From Desulfocapsa sp. (GTDB lineage Bacteria > Desulfobacterota > Desulfobulbia > Desulfobulbales > Desulfocapsaceae), in the NCBI GenBank assembly GCA_030145625.1, contig JAQYVF010000010.1, positions 1 through 64,000 of the forward strand: a stretch of 64,000 bases of DNA. Direction: 5' to 3'. The notes beneath the pieces were generated by a model that worked only from the letters and a program-made list of their open reading frames with translations, was not told the DNA's origin and did not search any database. Within the stretch, counting starts at the first letter, position 1. Each line of letters begins with the position of its first letter. A program made the translations under genes and the position numbers. Positions 22,582 through 63,928 of the stretch are shown piece after piece.

Positions 22582-22847
22582 TAAGCTATAGTAACATAAT
22601 TTTCCGATTTGTGGGTTGGAAGAGAATGATGGTAGAGGATGTCTTCCACATTTTTAAGTTAAAGGAACACACCATGTTCCCACACTAAACACGGAAGAAA
22701 ATCAATTGAATAATGTTTCATTCCTGCAAGTTCTGATGGTGTTTTTGGGTGAGGGGTTCACACTTACGGTAACGAGGGTTGCTTTTAAAGAGGTTAAAAG
22801 GTCATAGGATTGTTAAACAGTAATTGCCCTTTCCTGCGTTTCCCTTT
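22582..22847. other. Gene-free stretch before the tandem repeats
   Basis: About 265 bp upstream of a divergent minus-strand gene, continuing into the 101-bp repeats. A possible promoter for the secreted protein on the minus strand lies here. Nothing else was recognised. Confidence 0.4.
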
Positions 22848-23140
22848 AGATTCTTGCTCAGTTGATTTGAAGAGGTATTGCCGCAAACTGCTGATGTTTG
22901 AAATCGTAACCTTCTCAGTTACCACCAAGAATCTTATCCTTTAGGGCTAGATTCTTGCTCAGTTGATTTGAAGAGTTATTGCCGCAAACTGCTGATGTTT
23001 GAAATCGTAACCTTCTCAGTTACCACCAAGAATCTTATCCTTTAGGGCTAGATTCTTGCTCAGTTGATTTGAAGAGGTATTGCCGCAAACTGCTGATATT
23101 TGAAACCGTAACCTTCTCAGTTACCATCAAGAACCTTATA
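22848..23140 (+). repeat. Three tandem copies of a 101-bp repeat with self-complementary ends
   Basis: Copies start at 22848, 22949 and 23050, exactly 101 bp apart. The first two are almost identical; the third diverges toward its end. In copies 1 and 2 the unit begins AGATTCTTG and contains CAAGAATCT about 70 bases later, a perfect 9-bp inverted repeat (22848-22856 with 22926-22934 in copy 1); copy 3 has one mismatch. A second small inverted repeat GTAAC/GTTAC lies inside. The array ends about 50 bp before rlmL. It has no spacers, so it is not a CRISPR array. Confidence 0.9.
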
Positions 23141-37912: not shown

Positions 37913-40900
37913 TTATGATACGTTGACGGTTGTGTTCAGTTCCTTGCTTGAGGATTCTAGTTTGTGCAGTGCTTCGATGGTACTGTTAATGGAGAAGTTG
38001 ATCGCCTTGGTGGATTCCTGATTTTCGTGGGAGGAGCTGACCACACTCTCAAGCTGTTCTTTGACGGCTTGTCCGTTATCACTGAGGATCCCCGCCTTTT
38101 TATCCAGTTCGTCAACGGAACCGGAGATGGTGACAATGCCGGTGGAGATCTTTTCCATGGCTTCCAGTGCTGTCTGGATAACCTCACTGCCGTCACCGAG
38201 CATCTTCATACCGTCCTTCATGGCGACTATGGTTTCTTTGGATTCGTGTTCTACTTTTTTGACGATATTGGCGATGTCCACAGCCGATTTGGACGAATTT
38301 TCGGCAAGTTTACGGATCTCATCGGCTACCACGGCAAAGCCGCGGCCTGCATCTCCTGCCCGAGCGGCTTCAATGGCGGCATTAAAGGCCAGAAGGTTGG
38401 TCTGCGAGGCAATCTCTTTGATGATGTCCACAAAGCCGCCGATTCGTTCAAGCTGGCTCACCAGATTGGCCACCATCTGGTTGGAGCTTTCCATGGATTC
38501 GTTGATGGCTCCCATCTTTTTTTCGGCATCGGCTCCGGCCTTCTTACCCTGTTCTGCATCTCCGGCCACGTTGGTCGCCATTTCACTGGATTTGGTGGTG
38601 AGATCCACCATCTCATGGGCAAAGCCGAGCATGCCGTCTACGGTGGAGGATGACTGATCCAGCAGGTTGACCTCTTTTTCAATGAGTTCATTGATAGATT
38701 CCATATTATTGGTTGCCTCATCCATTTTCACAAGGGAGTCGGAGACCAAGGATGAAATCATGGCTTCTACCTCTGAGGAAGCTTCGTTGATCAAGCGTTC
38801 CGTTTCAGCTTCTGCTGTCACATCCATCGTGTACTCCAGCCCACCTTTGACATTGCCCTTGGCATCCTTGATGGAGATACTGGTGACCTTGACCGGGATA
38901 TCCTTGTTGTTGATATGGGCGATGCTCTGTTCTGTTATTGTTGTGTTTTCGCTAATGGCCCGTCGGACCCCGCATTTTTCGGTTTCACAGTGGTCTGTAC
39001 CGAAGAGCTCCCAGCATTTTTTGCCCTGGGCCTCTTCTACACTCATTCCGGCCATAGCGGCACCGGCCGGGTTGATATAGGTTATGTTGTAATTCAGGTC
39101 CACGGCATGGATAGGATTGGGGATGACATTGAGATTTTCAATCTTTTCGTTGGCCTCCTGGCGCTGTCTGACTTCTTCTGTGATGTCGAGGACAAATTCC
39201 AGTGCTCCTTTGATATTTCCTTTGGCATCCTTGATGGGTGCACCGGTGTACTTGATGGGAATGATGACACCGTCTGATGGTCTGGCAATGGTCTCTTCGC
39301 TGATGACATTGTCTTCACGCATGGCGCGACCTACAGCACATTTTTCCGTTTGGCAGTGGGAGGTTTTAAAGAGTTCGTAGCATTTTTTGCCAATAACTTC
39401 GTCGGGGGTGAGTCCTACGATTCCTGCCCCGGCCGGGTTCATGAAAGTGACATTGAAATCCGTGTCCACGGACATTATGGGGGTGGGAATGGCGTTGAGA
39501 TTTTCGATCTTCTCGTTGGCCGCCTGTTTCTGTTGAGCCTCCTCGGTGATATCAAGGATGTATTCCAGTGCTCCTTTGATGTTTCCTTTGGCATCTTTGA
39601 TGGGAGAGGCCGTGTACTTGATGGGGACAATCACCCCTTCAGCAGGCCTGGCAATGGTGTGGTCGGTGACCACGGAATCAGTCTGCATGGCCCTGGCACA
39701 GGCACATCTCTCTGTCTGGCAGTGCGGTGTCTTGAAAAGGTCGTAGCACTTCTTGCCCACCACCTCGTCTGGAGTCATTCCGGCCACCGCAGCTCCTGCC
39801 GGGTTCATGAAGGTGATGCTGAAGTCGGTGTCAATGGACATAATCGGGGTCGGTATTGTGTTGAGATTGTTGATTTTTTCTTCAGCAACCTGTTTTTGCT
39901 GTGCCTCTTCCGTGACATCGATAATATATTCCAGCGCGCCCTTGATGTTTCCCTTTGCATCCTTGATGGGAGAGGCGGTGTATTTGATGGGGACAATCAC
40001 GCCCTCAGCAGGTCTGGCAATGGTATGGGCTGTGACTACGGAATCCGTCTTCATGGCCCTGGCACAGGCACATTGCTCTGTCTGGCAATGCGGTGTCTTA
40101 AAGAGATCGTAGCACTTCTTGCCCACCACCTCGTCCGGGGTCATCCCTGCCACGGCAGCCCCTGCCGGGTTCATGAAGGTGACGCTGAAGTCTGTATCAA
40201 TGGACATGATGGGTGTGGGAATGGTGTTAAGGTTGTTGATTTTTTCCTCAGCAATCTGCTTTTGTTTGTTTTCCTCGGTGACATCAAGGATGTATTCCAG
40301 TGCGCCTTTGATGTTTCCCTTGGCATCCTTTATGGGAGAGGCGGTGTATTTGATGGGGATGATAACGCCTTCAGCCGGCCTGGCAATGGTCTGGGCAGTG
40401 ATCACGGAATCTGTCTTCATGGCTCTGGCACAGGCGCATTTTTCTGTCTTGCAATGGGGTGTTTTGAAGAGGTCGAAACACTTTTTGCCCACCACTTCAT
40501 CAGGGGTCATTCCGGCCACAGCTGCTCCTGCCGGGTTCATGAAGGTGATGTTGAACTTGTCATCAATCTCCATGATGGGAGTGGGAATCACGTTGAGATC
40601 CGTTTGCATCTGCTGCAGTTTGGATTGCAGCTCCTTGACCATGGTGATATTTCTCATGGAGACCAGAGTGGTGCCATTTTCAGGCATGGGGGTTGCTTTG
40701 GAGTGGTACCAGCTCACAGCCTTGCCGTTTGACTTGTGAAGGACCTCTGCCTCGGCACCTTTTTTCAGGCGCTTGGCCTTGGTCACTGGACAATTTTTGG
40801 TTCCGCAAAGTTGCGAGGGGCAACACTCTTCACAGGTGAGTTTTCCAATGACCTTGTCTGCTTTGAGATTGAATTCCTGTAAAAAAGCATCGTTGGCCCA

Positions 40901-59472: not shown

Positions 59473-60060
59473 CTATACCTTGACGGATAGAATGGAGTTT
59501 TCGCCGCCGAAATCATCCTGCACACGTTCCTGTACGGTCGGGTCGGCAATTTGTTGCCCATCTTCAACAAGGTAGCTGTACTGATATTCTCCTTCAGGAA
59601 GATTCAGAGTCAGGCTCCAGTACCCGCTGGGGCCTATTCTTTCCATGGCCACCGGTTGCCAGCTGGTAAATGTACCGATAATATCAGCATGGTCTGCATT
59701 CGGACGATAGATGATAAATCGATGAGGAATTTCCCTGTTTATGGCAGTGCTGGGAATCGGTACGGGAATTGATGGCGGCAGCATGAACAGAACTGCTGCT
59801 CCAAGCGCGAGACCTGTAGAAAAGAGTGCCGCAGGCCGTAGCCAGGGGACGGAAAAGCTTTTTTGAGATTTTTGCGCTATCGGCAACTGTACCTGGGGCA
59901 CTGGCTGTGTCAGTTCGGCATGCACCAGTTTTTCCTGCTCAAGCAGAGTAAGAGCCTCATCTTTAAATGTCTTTTCTTTATGTACCGTTTCCACAAAATC
60001 GATTTTTTCATCAAGATCCAGCTCGTTGTCAATAAACATACTGATTAGATAATCTTTCAT
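59473..60060 (-). CDS. Anti-sigma factor-like protein with glycogen-binding-like (CBM48/E-set) domain
   Basis: A 195-residue protein. The cytoplasmic N-terminus (about 1-70) has MFIDNELDLDEKIDFVETVH, typical of anti-sigma helical domains but without the usual zinc-finger HxxxCxxC motif. A TM lies at about 75-97 (FSTGLALGAAVLFMLPP). The C-terminal ~85 residues resemble the early-set/AMPK glycogen-binding domain (ADIIGTFTSWQPVAM, GYWSLTLNLPEGEYQYSYLV). Such a combination occurs in some anti-sigma factors. It overlaps the sigma gene by 4 bases. Confidence 0.85.
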   Translation of the reverse strand: MKDYLISMFIDNELDLDEKIDFVETVHKEKTFKDEALTLLEQEKLVHAELTQPVPQVQLPIAQKSQKSFSVPWLRPAALFSTGLALGAAVLFMLPPSIPVPIPSTAINREIPHRFIIYRPNADHADIIGTFTSWQPVAMERIGPSGYWSLTLNLPEGEYQYSYLVEDGQQIADPTVQERVQDDFGGENSILSVKV

Positions 60061-60533
60061 AGCTCACCTGCATGAAGTATTTTTTTAAGTTTAAGACGAG
60101 AGCGGTGTATTTTAACTTTTATGTTTGACTCGCTTGTGCCGGTCAGTTCGGCAATTTTTTTGTAGGACAGGCCGTTGCTGACGGCCAGGGACAGGACCTT
60201 GACCTCATCCGGGTCAAGCTGCTGCAGTGCATCCTGCACGCGGCGTGATTCTTCACGTACCAGAAAATTTGACTCTTCATCACACTCGCTCTTATGCCGT
60301 TCCTCTAGGAACGGAACGGTGGTGCGTTGTCTGCGGCAGTTATCGTTAAGCAGATTGCGACCAATGGTAAAGAGCAGTGATACGCTGAATTCCCCCTTAC
60401 CGTATCGTTCAAGATACCTGGTAAAGCTTTCCTGTAAGGTATCCGCCGCCAGGTAATGATCACCACTCCTGCGCAGAAGATACCCAAAAAACCGATCTTT
60501 ATTGTCGCTGTAAAATTCTCTAAAGGTATTCAT
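60057..60533 (-). CDS. ECF-type RNA polymerase sigma factor
   Basis: A sigma70-family ECF factor of 158 residues. Region 2 lies at about 1-65 (FREFYSDNKDRFFGYLLRRS and DTLQESFTRYLERYG) and region 4 at about 100-150 (GLSYKKIAELTGTSESNIKV), ending with the helix-turn-helix KVKIHRSRLKLKKIL. The anti-sigma gene follows with a 4-base overlap. It is divergent from the secreted cysteine-repeat protein, the likely regulon member. Confidence 0.94.
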   Translation of the reverse strand: MNTFREFYSDNKDRFFGYLLRRSGDHYLAADTLQESFTRYLERYGKGEFSVSLLFTIGRNLLNDNCRRQRTTVPFLEERHKSECDEESNFLVREESRRVQDALQQLDPDEVKVLSLAVSNGLSYKKIAELTGTSESNIKVKIHRSRLKLKKILHAGEL

Positions 60534-60563
60534 CTTATTAGGTAAACGTTTTTCTCCCGCAGA

Positions 60564-60608
60564 GGTTACTGATATTTTTTTTATAAAAAATATCAGTAAC
60601 CTTTTTTT
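60564..60608. terminator. 17-bp perfect hairpin with T-run between divergent promoters
   Basis: GGTTACTGATATTTTTT (60564-60580) pairs perfectly with its complement at 60585-60601 around TTAT, followed by seven T on the plus strand. It looks like a rho-independent terminator but lies upstream of both flanking genes. It could stop transcripts arriving from antisense of the sigma gene, or it overlaps the sigma promoter. Confidence 0.6.
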
Positions 60609-60622
60609 CGCTGAATCGTTCC
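60595..60622 (-). promoter_or_regulatory. Possible ECF-type promoter of the sigma gene
   Basis: On the minus strand GGAAC (60622-60618) is followed after 17 bases by GTTACT. GGAAC is the classic ECF -35 core. The -10 part is loose and falls inside the hairpin stem, so this is only a candidate for autoregulation. Confidence 0.3.
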
Positions 60623-60639
60623 CCCTCTATATGAATCGC

Positions 60640-60651
60640 GAACATATGTTC
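60640..60651. promoter_or_regulatory. Palindrome GAACATATGTTC
   Basis: Perfect 12-bp palindrome 83 bp upstream of the cysteine-repeat gene and 107 bp upstream of the sigma gene. A regulator binding site is possible; no factor is known. Confidence 0.35.
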
Positions 60652-60733
60652 ACAGATGTTAATGGAGCGGTTTTTACCGCTTAATATAACTTTCCCGCTG
60701 TGGGAACAATTCAATCATCAGGAGATTATCAAG

Positions 60734-61345
60734 ATGAAACTTTCAAGAAAAGTCAGCACGATTATCGGTATGGCAGCACTCTTTGGTATGCTTACGGTAC
60801 CGGCTATGGCTCAGACAACACTACCCGGCTCGTCGCTGGGCGTTCAGTATGGCAGTGGAAACGGCAGCGACGCCGGTGATCAGGATCGTCTGCGGGATGG
60901 TTCCTGTTTACCTGCCGTTGAGATCGTAGCCCCGACTCTGGCAGGAGATCAGATTCGTGATAAAAAACAGCTTAAGGACGATTCATGCTTACCTGCAGTT
61001 GAGATTGTAACCCCCACTCTGGCTGCTGATCAGATTCGTGATAAAAAACAGCTTAAGGACGGTTCTTGTATACCTGCAGTTGAGATCGTAACGCCCACTC
61101 TGGCTGCTGATCAGATTCGTGATAAAAAACAGCTTAAGGACGGTTCCTGTTTACCTGCAGTTGAGATCGTAGCCCCGACTCTGGCAGGAGATCAGATTCG
61201 TGATAAAAAACAGCTTAAGGACGATTCATGCTTACCTGCAGTTGAGATCGTAACTCCCACTCTGGCAGGAAATGGCAACGGTCGCAGCAGAGGAGACTGT
61301 GACGGTACCGGTGATGGTGATCGGGATGGTTCTTGCCAGGTTTGA
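60734..61345 (+). CDS. Secreted protein made of 27-residue cysteine-containing repeats
   Basis: A 203-residue protein. Signal peptide MKLSRKVSTIIGMAALFGML with cleavage after AMA. Five repeats of about 27 residues (DQIRDKKQLKDxSCxPAVEI then VxPTLA) follow, cysteines at 58, 85, 112, 139 and 166, and a Gly/Asp-rich tail with two more (CDG, GSCQV). One Cys per repeat, evenly spaced, suggests a ladder of metal ligands, intermolecular disulfides or attachment sites. No family is recognised. The ATG at 60734 has AGGAG upstream; an earlier in-frame ATG at 60656 lacks one. It is divergent from the ECF sigma gene. Confidence 0.8.
   Translation: MKLSRKVSTIIGMAALFGMLTVPAMAQTTLPGSSLGVQYGSGNGSDAGDQDRLRDGSCLPAVEIVAPTLAGDQIRDKKQLKDDSCLPAVEIVTPTLAADQIRDKKQLKDGSCIPAVEIVTPTLAADQIRDKKQLKDGSCLPAVEIVAPTLAGDQIRDKKQLKDDSCLPAVEIVTPTLAGNGNGRSRGDCDGTGDGDRDGSCQV
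60878..61267 (+). repeat. 81-bp tandem repeats inside the cysteine-repeat gene
   Basis: The repeat units are 81 bp and nearly identical in DNA (for example TCGTGATAAAAAACAGCTTA in each full unit). The units ending at about 61010 and 61255 are the most alike. The first unit is shorter by 12 bp. Such identity points to recent expansion and to possible copy-number variation. Confidence 0.88.
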
Positions 61346-61515: not shown

Positions 61516-61888
61516 CAGGAGGAGCTGTGTTGGCATAAATGATAGATAATATTGATTAATTTGTAAATGAACCTCGTTTGGAAATGATGATAATCGAATT
61601 TGTTTTTGCATGACAAAAAAATCCTCGCTAGTGAGAAAGTCAAAAAATGAAACGAAATCGTAATAGTTCACTGGGGGTAACCCAGGTGGGCTATGCGAAG
61701 ACGGGCACCGTTGGCATATCTTTTTTCTCTGATTCGGACGGAGGTACCCTGTCATTTACGGTATGTGGATCTTTCACCCATAGAAAAAGTAAGGTTGATT
61801 TTGTTTTCGAACGCAAGCCATAAAAATATGGCCGTGAGGCTGCACGCTACTCACTCTTTTTTATATCTACAGAAGTTAAGGAATGGAC

Positions 61889-62758
61889 ATGAAAATTTTT
61901 TCTTTAGTAGTACTATTTTTTACGTTGACCTGTTTAACATCCTGGGGTCAAGAACCTACCTATAAACAAGGAGTTAACATTTTTATAGAAACTGGTGTAA
62001 CCCAGCCAGATCGTATACCTACCTGGTATGCTCCTATGGTTGCCATGCCATATGCCCCTGTTTTTGAAATTCTTGCCACTAAAGGAACTCAAGGTCGATA
62101 TTATCAGCGTACTTATGCAGTAACCATTAAAGATATTATCAAGTGGCATGGTCATGACTGTGAAGGCATAACACATGTCGCTAATTGCTCAAAGATTGCT
62201 TTCGATATTCTTTTCCCGGATGGAATTATTGATAGAAGTGTTCTCAAAGCAATTTCCGGGACAGGACCTTGTTGGTCAGATGGAGTCGCTTTTTTGACCG
62301 GAGCTCGTCTTCAATATGGCAACCTCGGCTTCTTTAAAAATAAAGACTATAATCATGCTATTATCTTGTATCGAGAGGATACAAAAGTCGCTGTCCTGGC
62401 CACGTTAAAAAAAGGGATTAATAACATCCCAAACGAGCCAGTAGTTCTTCCGGAAAAAATTAAATGGAAGACTAAAATTAACATGCAAGAAGTCATTGAT
62501 CTTAAAAAAGAGGTAAAAAATCCAAAAGGGACTCCTGTACCTTATCAAGTGGATCTTCTCCGCTATTATCAATGGATGCATGTTAACGATATCCTAAGCC
62601 ACCCACTAACTGAAAGCTACCAGGCTGAAATTATAAATAATTTCAGTTGGGATGATTGGGTCGACTCAACAAAGACTATTGCTAATCCGCATACACGTGG
62701 AGACATTCGGTTGAGAAATTATCCTTATCGTGAAAAGCCTGTTACAGAGGTGAAATAG
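61889..62758 (+). CDS. Secreted FmdE-domain protein
   Basis: A 289-residue protein with a signal peptide (MKIFSLVVLFFTLTCLTSWG). The central part matches the FmdE domain (formylmethanofuran dehydrogenase subunit E family): IIKWHGHDCEGITHVANCSK, corresponding to the family FHGHxCPG metal site, then GTGPCWSDGVAFLTG and GNLGFFKNKDYNHAIILY. The usual Pro after Cys is Glu here. Most family members are cytoplasmic; export is uncommon. The ATG at 61889 has AAGGA six bases upstream and is preferred to the ATG at 61883. Function unknown, perhaps metal binding in the periplasm. Confidence 0.85.
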   Translation: MKIFSLVVLFFTLTCLTSWGQEPTYKQGVNIFIETGVTQPDRIPTWYAPMVAMPYAPVFEILATKGTQGRYYQRTYAVTIKDIIKWHGHDCEGITHVANCSKIAFDILFPDGIIDRSVLKAISGTGPCWSDGVAFLTGARLQYGNLGFFKNKDYNHAIILYREDTKVAVLATLKKGINNIPNEPVVLPEKIKWKTKINMQEVIDLKKEVKNPKGTPVPYQVDLLRYYQWMHVNDILSHPLTESYQAEIINNFSWDDWVDSTKTIANPHTRGDIRLRNYPYREKPVTEVK

Positions 62759-63157: not shown

Positions 63158-63928
63158 TTACAGCCAGGGGTCCATGTAGACCCAGAGTACTGCTCCCAGT
63201 TCCACCTCTTTTTCTTCGCCCTGCGGATTTTTCAAAGTGTAATCAGCACTGCTCAGGGCGGCAAAGCCCCACCATCCCGGTTGGGGGCAAGTGAAGGAAA
63301 AGATGCCTTCAGCATCGGCCTTGACTACCTGGGTGATGTGGTAGTCACTTGCGGCCTTGAATTTTTGTTCCTTGTTGTAAAATTCTACCTCTACTTCGGC
63401 TCCGGGAACAGGTTTGTTGTCAAAGAGGACCTGGCCGCTGAAGCTGTTGCCTGCATAGTTGCCAAATGGACGGAGCAAAGGCACGATCTCTGTGGGCAGG
63501 CCCACGGGTTGATCCCAGCCATCTTCGGAGCCAAAGGCAGGGATAATTGTCTTGGTGTAGTGGATGATGGAGAGGTCTTCCGTGGGTTCCCAGTAGGGGA
63601 CAGGTTCCATGACAAAATGATAGACTCCCGGGCGTTTGACTCGGAAGTCAGACTTCCAGGCGTGGTGGTCCATGACCTTGCTTTCCTGCAGGCCAGGCAG
63701 GAGGTCTGTTTCTTCACCATCCTTGATCACAGAGAATTTTGCCGGTTTGACCATGTCCATGCCAATTCCTTCAAAAGGGTGGGAGAATGAGAGGTCGAGC
63801 TGGATAGTTCTTTTTTCTGCGGTAACAATGGGTTCCGTTGGAATGACCATACCGAAATGTGCTGCTCCCGGACTGACGGTGGCCAGGAACAGGCTTGTGG
63901 TGATAAGGGTTGTGGAAAGTGGTTTCAT
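63158..63928 (-). CDS. Periplasmic DUF4198 protein, probable NikK-type nickel-binding component
   Basis: A 256-residue secreted protein with signal peptide (MKPLSTTLITTSLFLATVSP) ending AAHFGMV; the mature N-terminus starts with an Ala-His-Phe typical of DUF4198/NikK proteins, where the His may bind metal. Segments YHFVMEPVPYWEPTEDLSII and LLRPFGNYAGNSFSGQVLF and the final beta domain (PGAEVEVEFYN) match the family. NikK works with NikMLQO, whose genes lie 10 kb away. A strong AAGGAGAA site precedes the ATG. Confidence 0.85.
   Translation of the reverse strand: MKPLSTTLITTSLFLATVSPGAAHFGMVIPTEPIVTAEKRTIQLDLSFSHPFEGIGMDMVKPAKFSVIKDGEETDLLPGLQESKVMDHHAWKSDFRVKRPGVYHFVMEPVPYWEPTEDLSIIHYTKTIIPAFGSEDGWDQPVGLPTEIVPLLRPFGNYAGNSFSGQVLFDNKPVPGAEVEVEFYNKEQKFKAASDYHITQVVKADAEGIFSFTCPQPGWWGFAALSSADYTLKNPQGEEKEVELGAVLWVYMDPWL

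Follow-up and report, generated by a model that had tools for sequence, protein, structure and literature searches.

The stretch analyzed here (the window) comprises 64,000 nucleotides, positions 1 to 64,000 of contig JAQYVF010000010.1 of Desulfocapsa sp., a bacterium that probably takes part in sulfur cycling (Desulfobacterota; assembly GCA_030145625.1), which is contig C19 of the 4.98 Mb genome G000, below called the Desulfocapsa genome. Open reading frame (ORF) listing and profile scans identified a gene for an extracytoplasmic function (ECF) sigma factor (60057..60533, minus strand, 158 amino acids; Pfam and NCBIfam), the gene of its anti-sigma factor (59473..60060, minus strand, 195 amino acids; Pfam and a structure model) and, divergent from these two, the gene of a secreted repeat protein (60734..61345, plus strand, 203 amino acids). 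The 3' end of the sigma gene and the start of the anti-sigma gene overlap by 4 nt. What is new here is a pair of predicted promoters of the same design, which link the sigma/anti-sigma pair to the secreted repeat gene. We estimate at roughly 0.85 the probability that the pair forms a switch that directly drives the divergent gene and that the locus is part of a regulon of Desulfobacterota.

The sigma factor matches TIGR02937 with 71.7 bits (cut-off 42.9) and Sigma70_r4_2 with 49.2 bits (4.1e-13, cut-off 25.7), while its match to Sigma70_r2 lies slightly under the cut-off (22.3 bits, cut-off 24). With regions 2 and 4 present and region 3 absent, its sequence is that of an ECF (group IV) sigma factor. 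In terms of sequence, the adjacent putative membrane anti-sigma factor and the predicted autoregulated promoter of the AAC/CGT type are those of an ECF system, too.

Between the divergent genes, the window and its relatives share two conserved blocks, namely back-to-back copies of GTAAC-N16-CGTT pointing in opposite directions. Conservation in relatives marks both as putative ECF promoters, one of the sigma gene (60545..60569, minus strand) and one of the repeat-protein gene (60596..60620, plus strand). An 18-bp perfect inverted repeat with a 4-nt loop (60563..60602) contains the two back-to-back -35 elements (GGTTAC and GTAACC), which form its ends. A terminator function of this palindrome was ruled out, as relatives keep just the GGTTAC/GTAACC ends, as -35 elements. 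The CGTT of the sigma promoter lies 11 nt from the sigma ATG, the distance in loci L034, L112 and L140 being identical, and therefore the sigma mRNA is predicted to be almost leaderless.

The motif was counted in 80 anti-sigma loci (L076–L155; 828 kb, both strands), which were found by scanning genome contigs with the anti-sigma alignment. The underlying records are mostly Desulfo- or Deltaproteobacteria; a few are labeled only as Proteobacteria, Pseudomonadota or uncultured bacterium, and two are Denitrovibrio. All locus counts given here refer to this set; loci L033–L051 share genomes with it, and the clusters of promoter targets were built from both sets. GTAAC-Nx-CGTT with x = 16 has 156 sites and is present in all 80 loci, versus 0–6 sites for any other x from 10 to 23, and other box pairs at N16 have at most 11 sites. 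Around 155 of the sites, the bases seen most often are T-GTAAC-C-TTTT-N10-A..-CGTT-A-T-A, the window sites having A for the first T. A site lies on the sigma side in 67 of the 80 loci, divergently in 17, and just downstream of the anti-sigma gene in 38. The extended motif TGTAACCTT-N13-CGTT has 27 matches in 16 of the 22 system-bearing genomes versus two for the reversed control. The ORFs of the sigma factor, the anti-sigma factor and the secreted protein agree with a preliminary description of this DNA, and its proposal that the sigma factor controls the repeat protein is strongly supported, as far as sequence can tell, by the paired GTAAC-N16-CGTT promoters and the recurring arrangement; the outcome named there as contrary to the proposal, a neighborhood that does not recur, was not found, since it recurs in relatives.

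The targets of the 156 sites were classified by script, using crude pattern matches, as sigma factors (52), Gly-rich or D-G-S-C secreted proteins (39), helical secreted proteins (35), dihaem-peroxidase-like proteins (3) and PAS-Cys proteins (2); two sites had no ORF and 23 remained unassigned. Inspected by eye, the latter comprised 17 sites of sigma genes (two by position only), two of helical proteins and four that probably occur by chance. The low-complexity targets vary, from silk-like sequences (AGPGPGASAGPGPG) and GYGPGDGTGNxGxGPxDGTGYGPG to Cys repeats such as GDQIRKQDRKRDGSC (L121), and many are Gly-rich with 0–2 Cys. The recurrence of Gly/Cys repeat targets shows that the window protein is a recurring type and not an orphan. 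Of the 27 extended sites, ten lie away from any sigma locus. One of them is upstream of an RDRDxSC repeat protein (L191, G269) and another upstream of a D/Q-rich protein that has RDC at its end (L189, G054); as both proteins lie about 290 nt downstream of the site, the assignment is tentative.

No families could be named for these targets. The window protein and eight others scanned singly had only matches under the Pfam cut-offs; alignments of the helical family (A3) against Pfam and NCBIfam and of the D-G-S-C family (A5) against Pfam yielded scattered weak matches of one or two members in tables without cut-offs, and that of the DGTG family (A4) against NCBIfam yielded none. For the model of the helical protein, no match in the PDB went below E 0.03, and its profile found just three chance-level chains (E 0.27–0.88).

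Some further observations concern individual sites. Homologous small secreted proteins (..GTI.SISY.PN..) follow the extended motif in L195 (G007) and L196 (G002), on contigs distinct from those with the sigma loci. Secreted ..AHHPxxxI.. proteins follow GTAAC-N16-CGTT in two genomes (L063, contig C109 of the Desulfocapsa genome, and position 2942 of L051) and are likely members of the regulon. In L033 and L045–L047, the same promoter precedes a secreted protein that looks like MauG/cytochrome c peroxidase by sequence, and in L164 (G032) a promoter site is present with no matching ORF listed.

The commonest neighbors in the 80 loci are the anti-sigma factor (71), a helical secreted protein with a Gly-rich tail (69), the sigma factor (66) and a small lipoprotein (58), which looks by sequence like a carbohydrate-binding module (CBM). 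The aligned N-terminal Cys of this lipoprotein is present in 58 of 58 sequences, 43 of which have the lipobox pattern, and each of two further Cys in 57 of 58; given this conservation, a thiol or disulfide role is possible. Co-occurrence was analyzed in 96 genomes and in 296 genomes of the phylum, both samples including the Desulfocapsa genome and sharing some members of the order. In the first sample, 49 genomes matched the anti-sigma factor, 17 of them at full length (E < 1e-30) and the other 32 mostly by short matches to the C-terminal domain; short CBM-only matches (L020–L032) were left out of the follow-up. The helical protein occurs in 18 of the 96 genomes, all 17 with the full-length anti-sigma factor and G020. 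The D-G-S-C profile matched nine of the 96, seven with the anti-sigma factor and two (G032 and G039) without it. In the second sample, 15 genomes contain the anti-sigma factor, and the helical protein was found in 14, all among these 15, on the same contig and close by; in the fifteenth (G306), the anti-sigma gene is at a contig end. With 15 of 296 genomes, and the parts together in 14, the system is patchy, but its components co-occur. The Desulfocapsa genome has a single helical protein, in a second sigma/anti-sigma locus on contig C59.

The start of the repeat protein at 60734 (MKLSRKV...) was preferred over the listed ATG at 60656, since AGGAG stands 9 nt before it and the proteins of L034, L035 and L036 open with the same MKLS(R/K)K. 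By sequence, the protein carries a putative Sec-type signal with the predicted cleavage site ..VPAMA/Q. Its gene contains a tandem array with a period of 81 nt, 4.6 copies and 89% matches, encoding 27-residue units that start at residues 57, 84, 111, 138 and 165, with one Cys per unit, 27 residues apart (58, 85, 112, 139 and 166); the C-terminal part reads GDCDGTGDGDRDGSCQV. The preliminary description had five 27-residue repeats with one Cys each; five units were confirmed, each with its Cys, but the fifth is partial, diverging beyond 15 residues, and two extra Cys (189 and 201) bring the total to seven. A single silent base distinguishes unit 1 from unit 4, and units 2 and 3 deviate from these two by 3–4 residues, which implies that the array was recently duplicated or homogenized. 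Similar arrays among the fetched sequences were found in G002, where the contigs are broken inside the array (L034 and L166), and in degenerate form in G007. The statement that no family is known for the protein holds, as Pfam and NCBIfam scans gave only matches under the cut-offs, and no DUF2282 match was found by the Pfam scan. The term cysteine ladder suits the window protein but only this part of the regulon, other targets being Gly-rich with 0–2 Cys. A classical metallothionein was rejected, because the repeat protein has no CxC/CxxC pairs, let alone dense ones; its seven Cys are spread over 177 mature residues, the nearest two being 12 apart.

The promoter of the repeat gene is followed by a predicted structured 5' leader (60621..60733, plus strand), identified by folding and by comparison with three relatives. 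Leaders of Gly/Cys targets (the window leader and those of L076–L146) had a mean z of -2.46 versus dinucleotide shuffles (n = 29), compared with -0.21 for control upstream regions (n = 60); the ORFs behind these controls were called mechanically, and their starts may be in error. For the window-type leader, the prediction from four sequences has three stems, of which two stand directly before the Shine-Dalgarno sequence; in 4 of 17 pairs both bases have changed in one or more of these few sequences, and several are broken in one. No structure common to all leaders was found in a 12-sequence alignment, and consensus structures were obtained for subsets of five and four sequences. A search of Rfam with 13 loci returned one tRNA only, and the window leader had only matches under the gathering scores. 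It is possible that the Gly/Cys leaders act as a stability element or as regulator-binding leaders. A similar hairpin was seen before the start codon of a secreted DGTG/GTGDC protein on contig C81 of the Desulfocapsa genome.

Several observations weigh against the switch and its regulon. The same DGTG/GTGDC paralog (L002, 1438–1812) has no exact site upstream, and neither do the D-G-S-C proteins of L161–L163 (G023, G044 and G039; for example, TGDQDGTGPDRLRDGSC) in the stretch fetched, so the D-G-S-C protein type is wider than the regulon. The exact sigma-side site is absent in 13 of the 80 loci. The short 9-base motif is not enriched in the Desulfocapsa genome (23 sites versus 43 for the reversed control), so the plain motif is informative only with context or extension, and the extended motif has no match in this genome. 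The remaining eight of the ten unlinked extended sites lie before products of other kinds or have no clear gene behind them: PAS-Cys-like proteins (L174 and L175), the small secreted pair (L195 and L196), another secreted protein (L170), short ORFs (L187 and L188) and no ORF (L192). L037 and L041 have, beside the sigma gene, only the sigma-side site; judged by sequence, the divergent gene of L037 is thiol-peroxidase-like, and the gene upstream of sigma in L041 and L042, on sigma's own strand, is chemoreceptor-like. Downstream, the window locus has neither the helical protein nor the CBM-like lipoprotein that are usual there; it appears to be a reduced copy with an output of its own.

The anti-sigma factor consists of an N-terminal helical region, one hydrophobic helix (about residues 75–93), which is taken as transmembrane (TM) from sequence and model, and a C-terminal CBM48/AMPK1_CBM-like domain (114–194). 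The C-terminus matches AMPK1_CBM (PF16561; 5.8e-9, 36.5 bits, cut-off 26.8) and CBM_48 (24.6 bits, cut-off 22.4). The model has a mean pLDDT (predicted local distance difference test) of 74, with block means of 85–93 from residue 111 onward, and resembles the glycogen-binding domains of the AMP-activated protein kinase (AMPK) beta subunit (Foldseek, 1z0m_C, TMt 0.86), in agreement with the sequence comparison. By profile and predicted fold, the domain is a CBM48/AMPK glycogen-binding module; it differs from those of AMPK beta in being the C-terminal part of an anti-sigma factor and in its sugar site. Ten residues are invariant in all 71 homologs (R114, F115, W134, W148, D173, P174, D182, G185, N188 and S189). 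The sugar-contact residues of AMPK beta1, which we take to be W100, K126, W133 and N150, are kept in part: W134 and N188 correspond to W100 and N150, whereas the K126 counterpart is S/T and the W133 counterpart R/Q, each in 54 of 71. The proposed sensing of a glycan is thus supported by the glycogen-binding-type fold and the two invariant residues and weakened by the two positions not kept, and glycan binding by this domain is possible. The window anti-sigma factor has no cysteines, and a zinc-binding anti-sigma factor (ZAS/HCC) was rejected, the N-terminal HxxxCxxC being present in none of the 71 homologs.

The -35 element matches that of the ECF16 group (Caulobacter SigF-NrsF, Bradyrhizobium EcfF-OsrA and Brucella BcrS-AbcS), for which published work gives the promoter (T/C)GTAACC-N16-CGAA, a response to Cr/Cd, H2O2 or HOCl, and the control of DUF2282/DUF692 genes in Caulobacter (PMC3511200, PMC3420878, PMC8315932). 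The likeness comprises -35 (T)GTAAC, the N16 spacing (Caulobacter), autoregulation, which was shown for EcfF, and DUF2282 genes among the Caulobacter targets. There are also differences: the -10 element is CGTT here and CGAA in ECF16, the anti-sigma factor here combines a single hydrophobic helix with a CBM-like domain in place of the six-TM DUF1109 protein, and the targets here are a helical family without a name and repeat proteins of the Gly-rich or D-x-S-C kind. Pfam found no DUF1109 match in the window anti-sigma factor. Because the -10 element, the anti-sigma factor and the targets differ, the system was set outside ECF16, with both the CGAA promoter and the six-TM DUF1109 partner lacking.

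The comparison bears on the nature of the signal. A thiol, redox or metal stress response, in which oxidants or metals free the sigma factor and the Cys-repeat proteins bind thiols or metals as in ECF16, would be compatible with the switch and is a possible reading, if not a probable one. The shared -35 consensus and the metal and oxidant inducers published for ECF16 are consistent with it, as are the conserved Cys of the CBM-like lipoprotein, the gene that looks by sequence like MauG/cytochrome c peroxidase and carries the promoter in the paralogous locus of the Desulfocapsa genome as well as at 3 of the 156 sites, and the thiol-peroxidase-like divergent gene of L037. It fits less well with the CGTT element and the type of anti-sigma factor, with the lack of cysteine in the latter and the 0–2 Cys of many targets, or with a repeat protein without CxC/CxxC in a genome where PF05114 (the DUF692-type enzyme) was not found.

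Equally compatible with the switch, and likewise well short of even odds, is polysaccharide sensing as in RsgI/SigI of Clostridium thermocellum, where an anti-sigma factor with an extracellular carbohydrate-binding-type module controls extracellular products. Here, the CBM-like domain would bind an alpha-glucan-type polymer and free the sigma factor, and a matrix of protein and polysaccharide would be made jointly. The AMPK1_CBM/CBM48 match, the AMPK-beta fold, the invariant W134 and N188 and the CBM-like lipoprotein (by sequence look), a conserved neighbor in 58 of the 80 loci, argue for such sensing; the replaced K126 and W133 counterparts argue against it, and CBM-like domains can also act as protein-protein modules. 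In contrast to RsgI/SigI, the sigma factor is of the ECF type, the sugar site is partly kept, and no glycan-active enzyme (CAZyme) was recognized among the targets by eye. An RsgI anti-sigma factor proper was rejected, as the Pfam scan found no RsgI N-terminal domain or SigI-partner match for either protein.

The tandem Cys units with their variable copy number would also suit a precursor of the ribosomally synthesized and post-translationally modified peptide (RiPP) kind, from which Cys units are processed. DUF2282 proteins, small Cys-bearing secreted proteins, offer an analogy under ECF16. Such a precursor is very unlikely, as the protein has a predicted Sec-type signal instead of a RiPP leader, and no modifying enzyme was found among the five neighbors scanned, nor PF05114 in the Desulfocapsa genome, other RiPP enzymes not having been searched; a bufferin or DUF692-modified peptide was rejected on the lack of a DUF2282 match and of PF05114 (0 of 1 genome, the Desulfocapsa one). 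Least probable of all is that the repeat gene is an unrelated neighbor sharing the promoter by chance, which the non-enriched short motif and the different neighbors upstream of sigma at some loci might suggest, against the spacing-specific excess (156 versus 0–6) and the retention of both promoters in relatives with homologous or analogous targets.

In the favored sigma/anti-sigma switch, the anti-sigma factor would hold the sigma factor at the inner membrane until a signal from the envelope reaches its glycogen-binding-like domain in the periplasm. The released sigma factor would direct RNA polymerase to both GTAAC-N16-CGTT promoters, which drive the sigma gene itself (autoregulation) and the repeat gene. 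The repeat protein would be exported by Sec and is probably cross-linked or ligand-bound via its regularly spaced Cys. Other outputs of the regulon would be the conserved helical protein with the Gly-rich tail and the diverse Gly-rich or D-x-S-C repeat proteins. That these products form a matrix at the surface or in the periplasm, rich in glycine and held together in part by disulfides, is close to an even bet, the matrix role being read from composition only, which again weighs against the interpretation. More tentatively, we suggest that the Desulfobacterota regulon, by means of the ECF sigma factor and the glycogen-binding-like anti-sigma factor, builds the matrix from unnamed families (helical, silk-like Gly-rich and D-x-S-C) and couples the sensing of matrix glycan or unassembled subunits to their production, with structured leaders.

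The motif is spacing-specific enough to define a regulon from sequence alone. It connects several secreted protein families without names to a single switch, in members of a phylum with many sulfate reducers and sulfur disproportionators. The system could serve for testing the role of low-complexity Gly- and Cys-rich secreted proteins in these anaerobes, and the ability of an AMPK-type domain to sense signals in the periplasm. No description of the regulon was found in the literature searched, which did not cover the 2021 ECF classification, where the group may already be numbered.

Beside the repeat gene, the window contains genes of a secreted FmdE-domain protein (61883–62758) and a DUF4198 protein (63158–63928); a DUF4198-like gene likewise lies 3' of the repeat gene in G007 (L035). 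Large tandem repeats are present elsewhere in the window, at 39118–40599 (366 nt, 4.0 copies) and 22847–23139 (101 nt, 2.9 copies).

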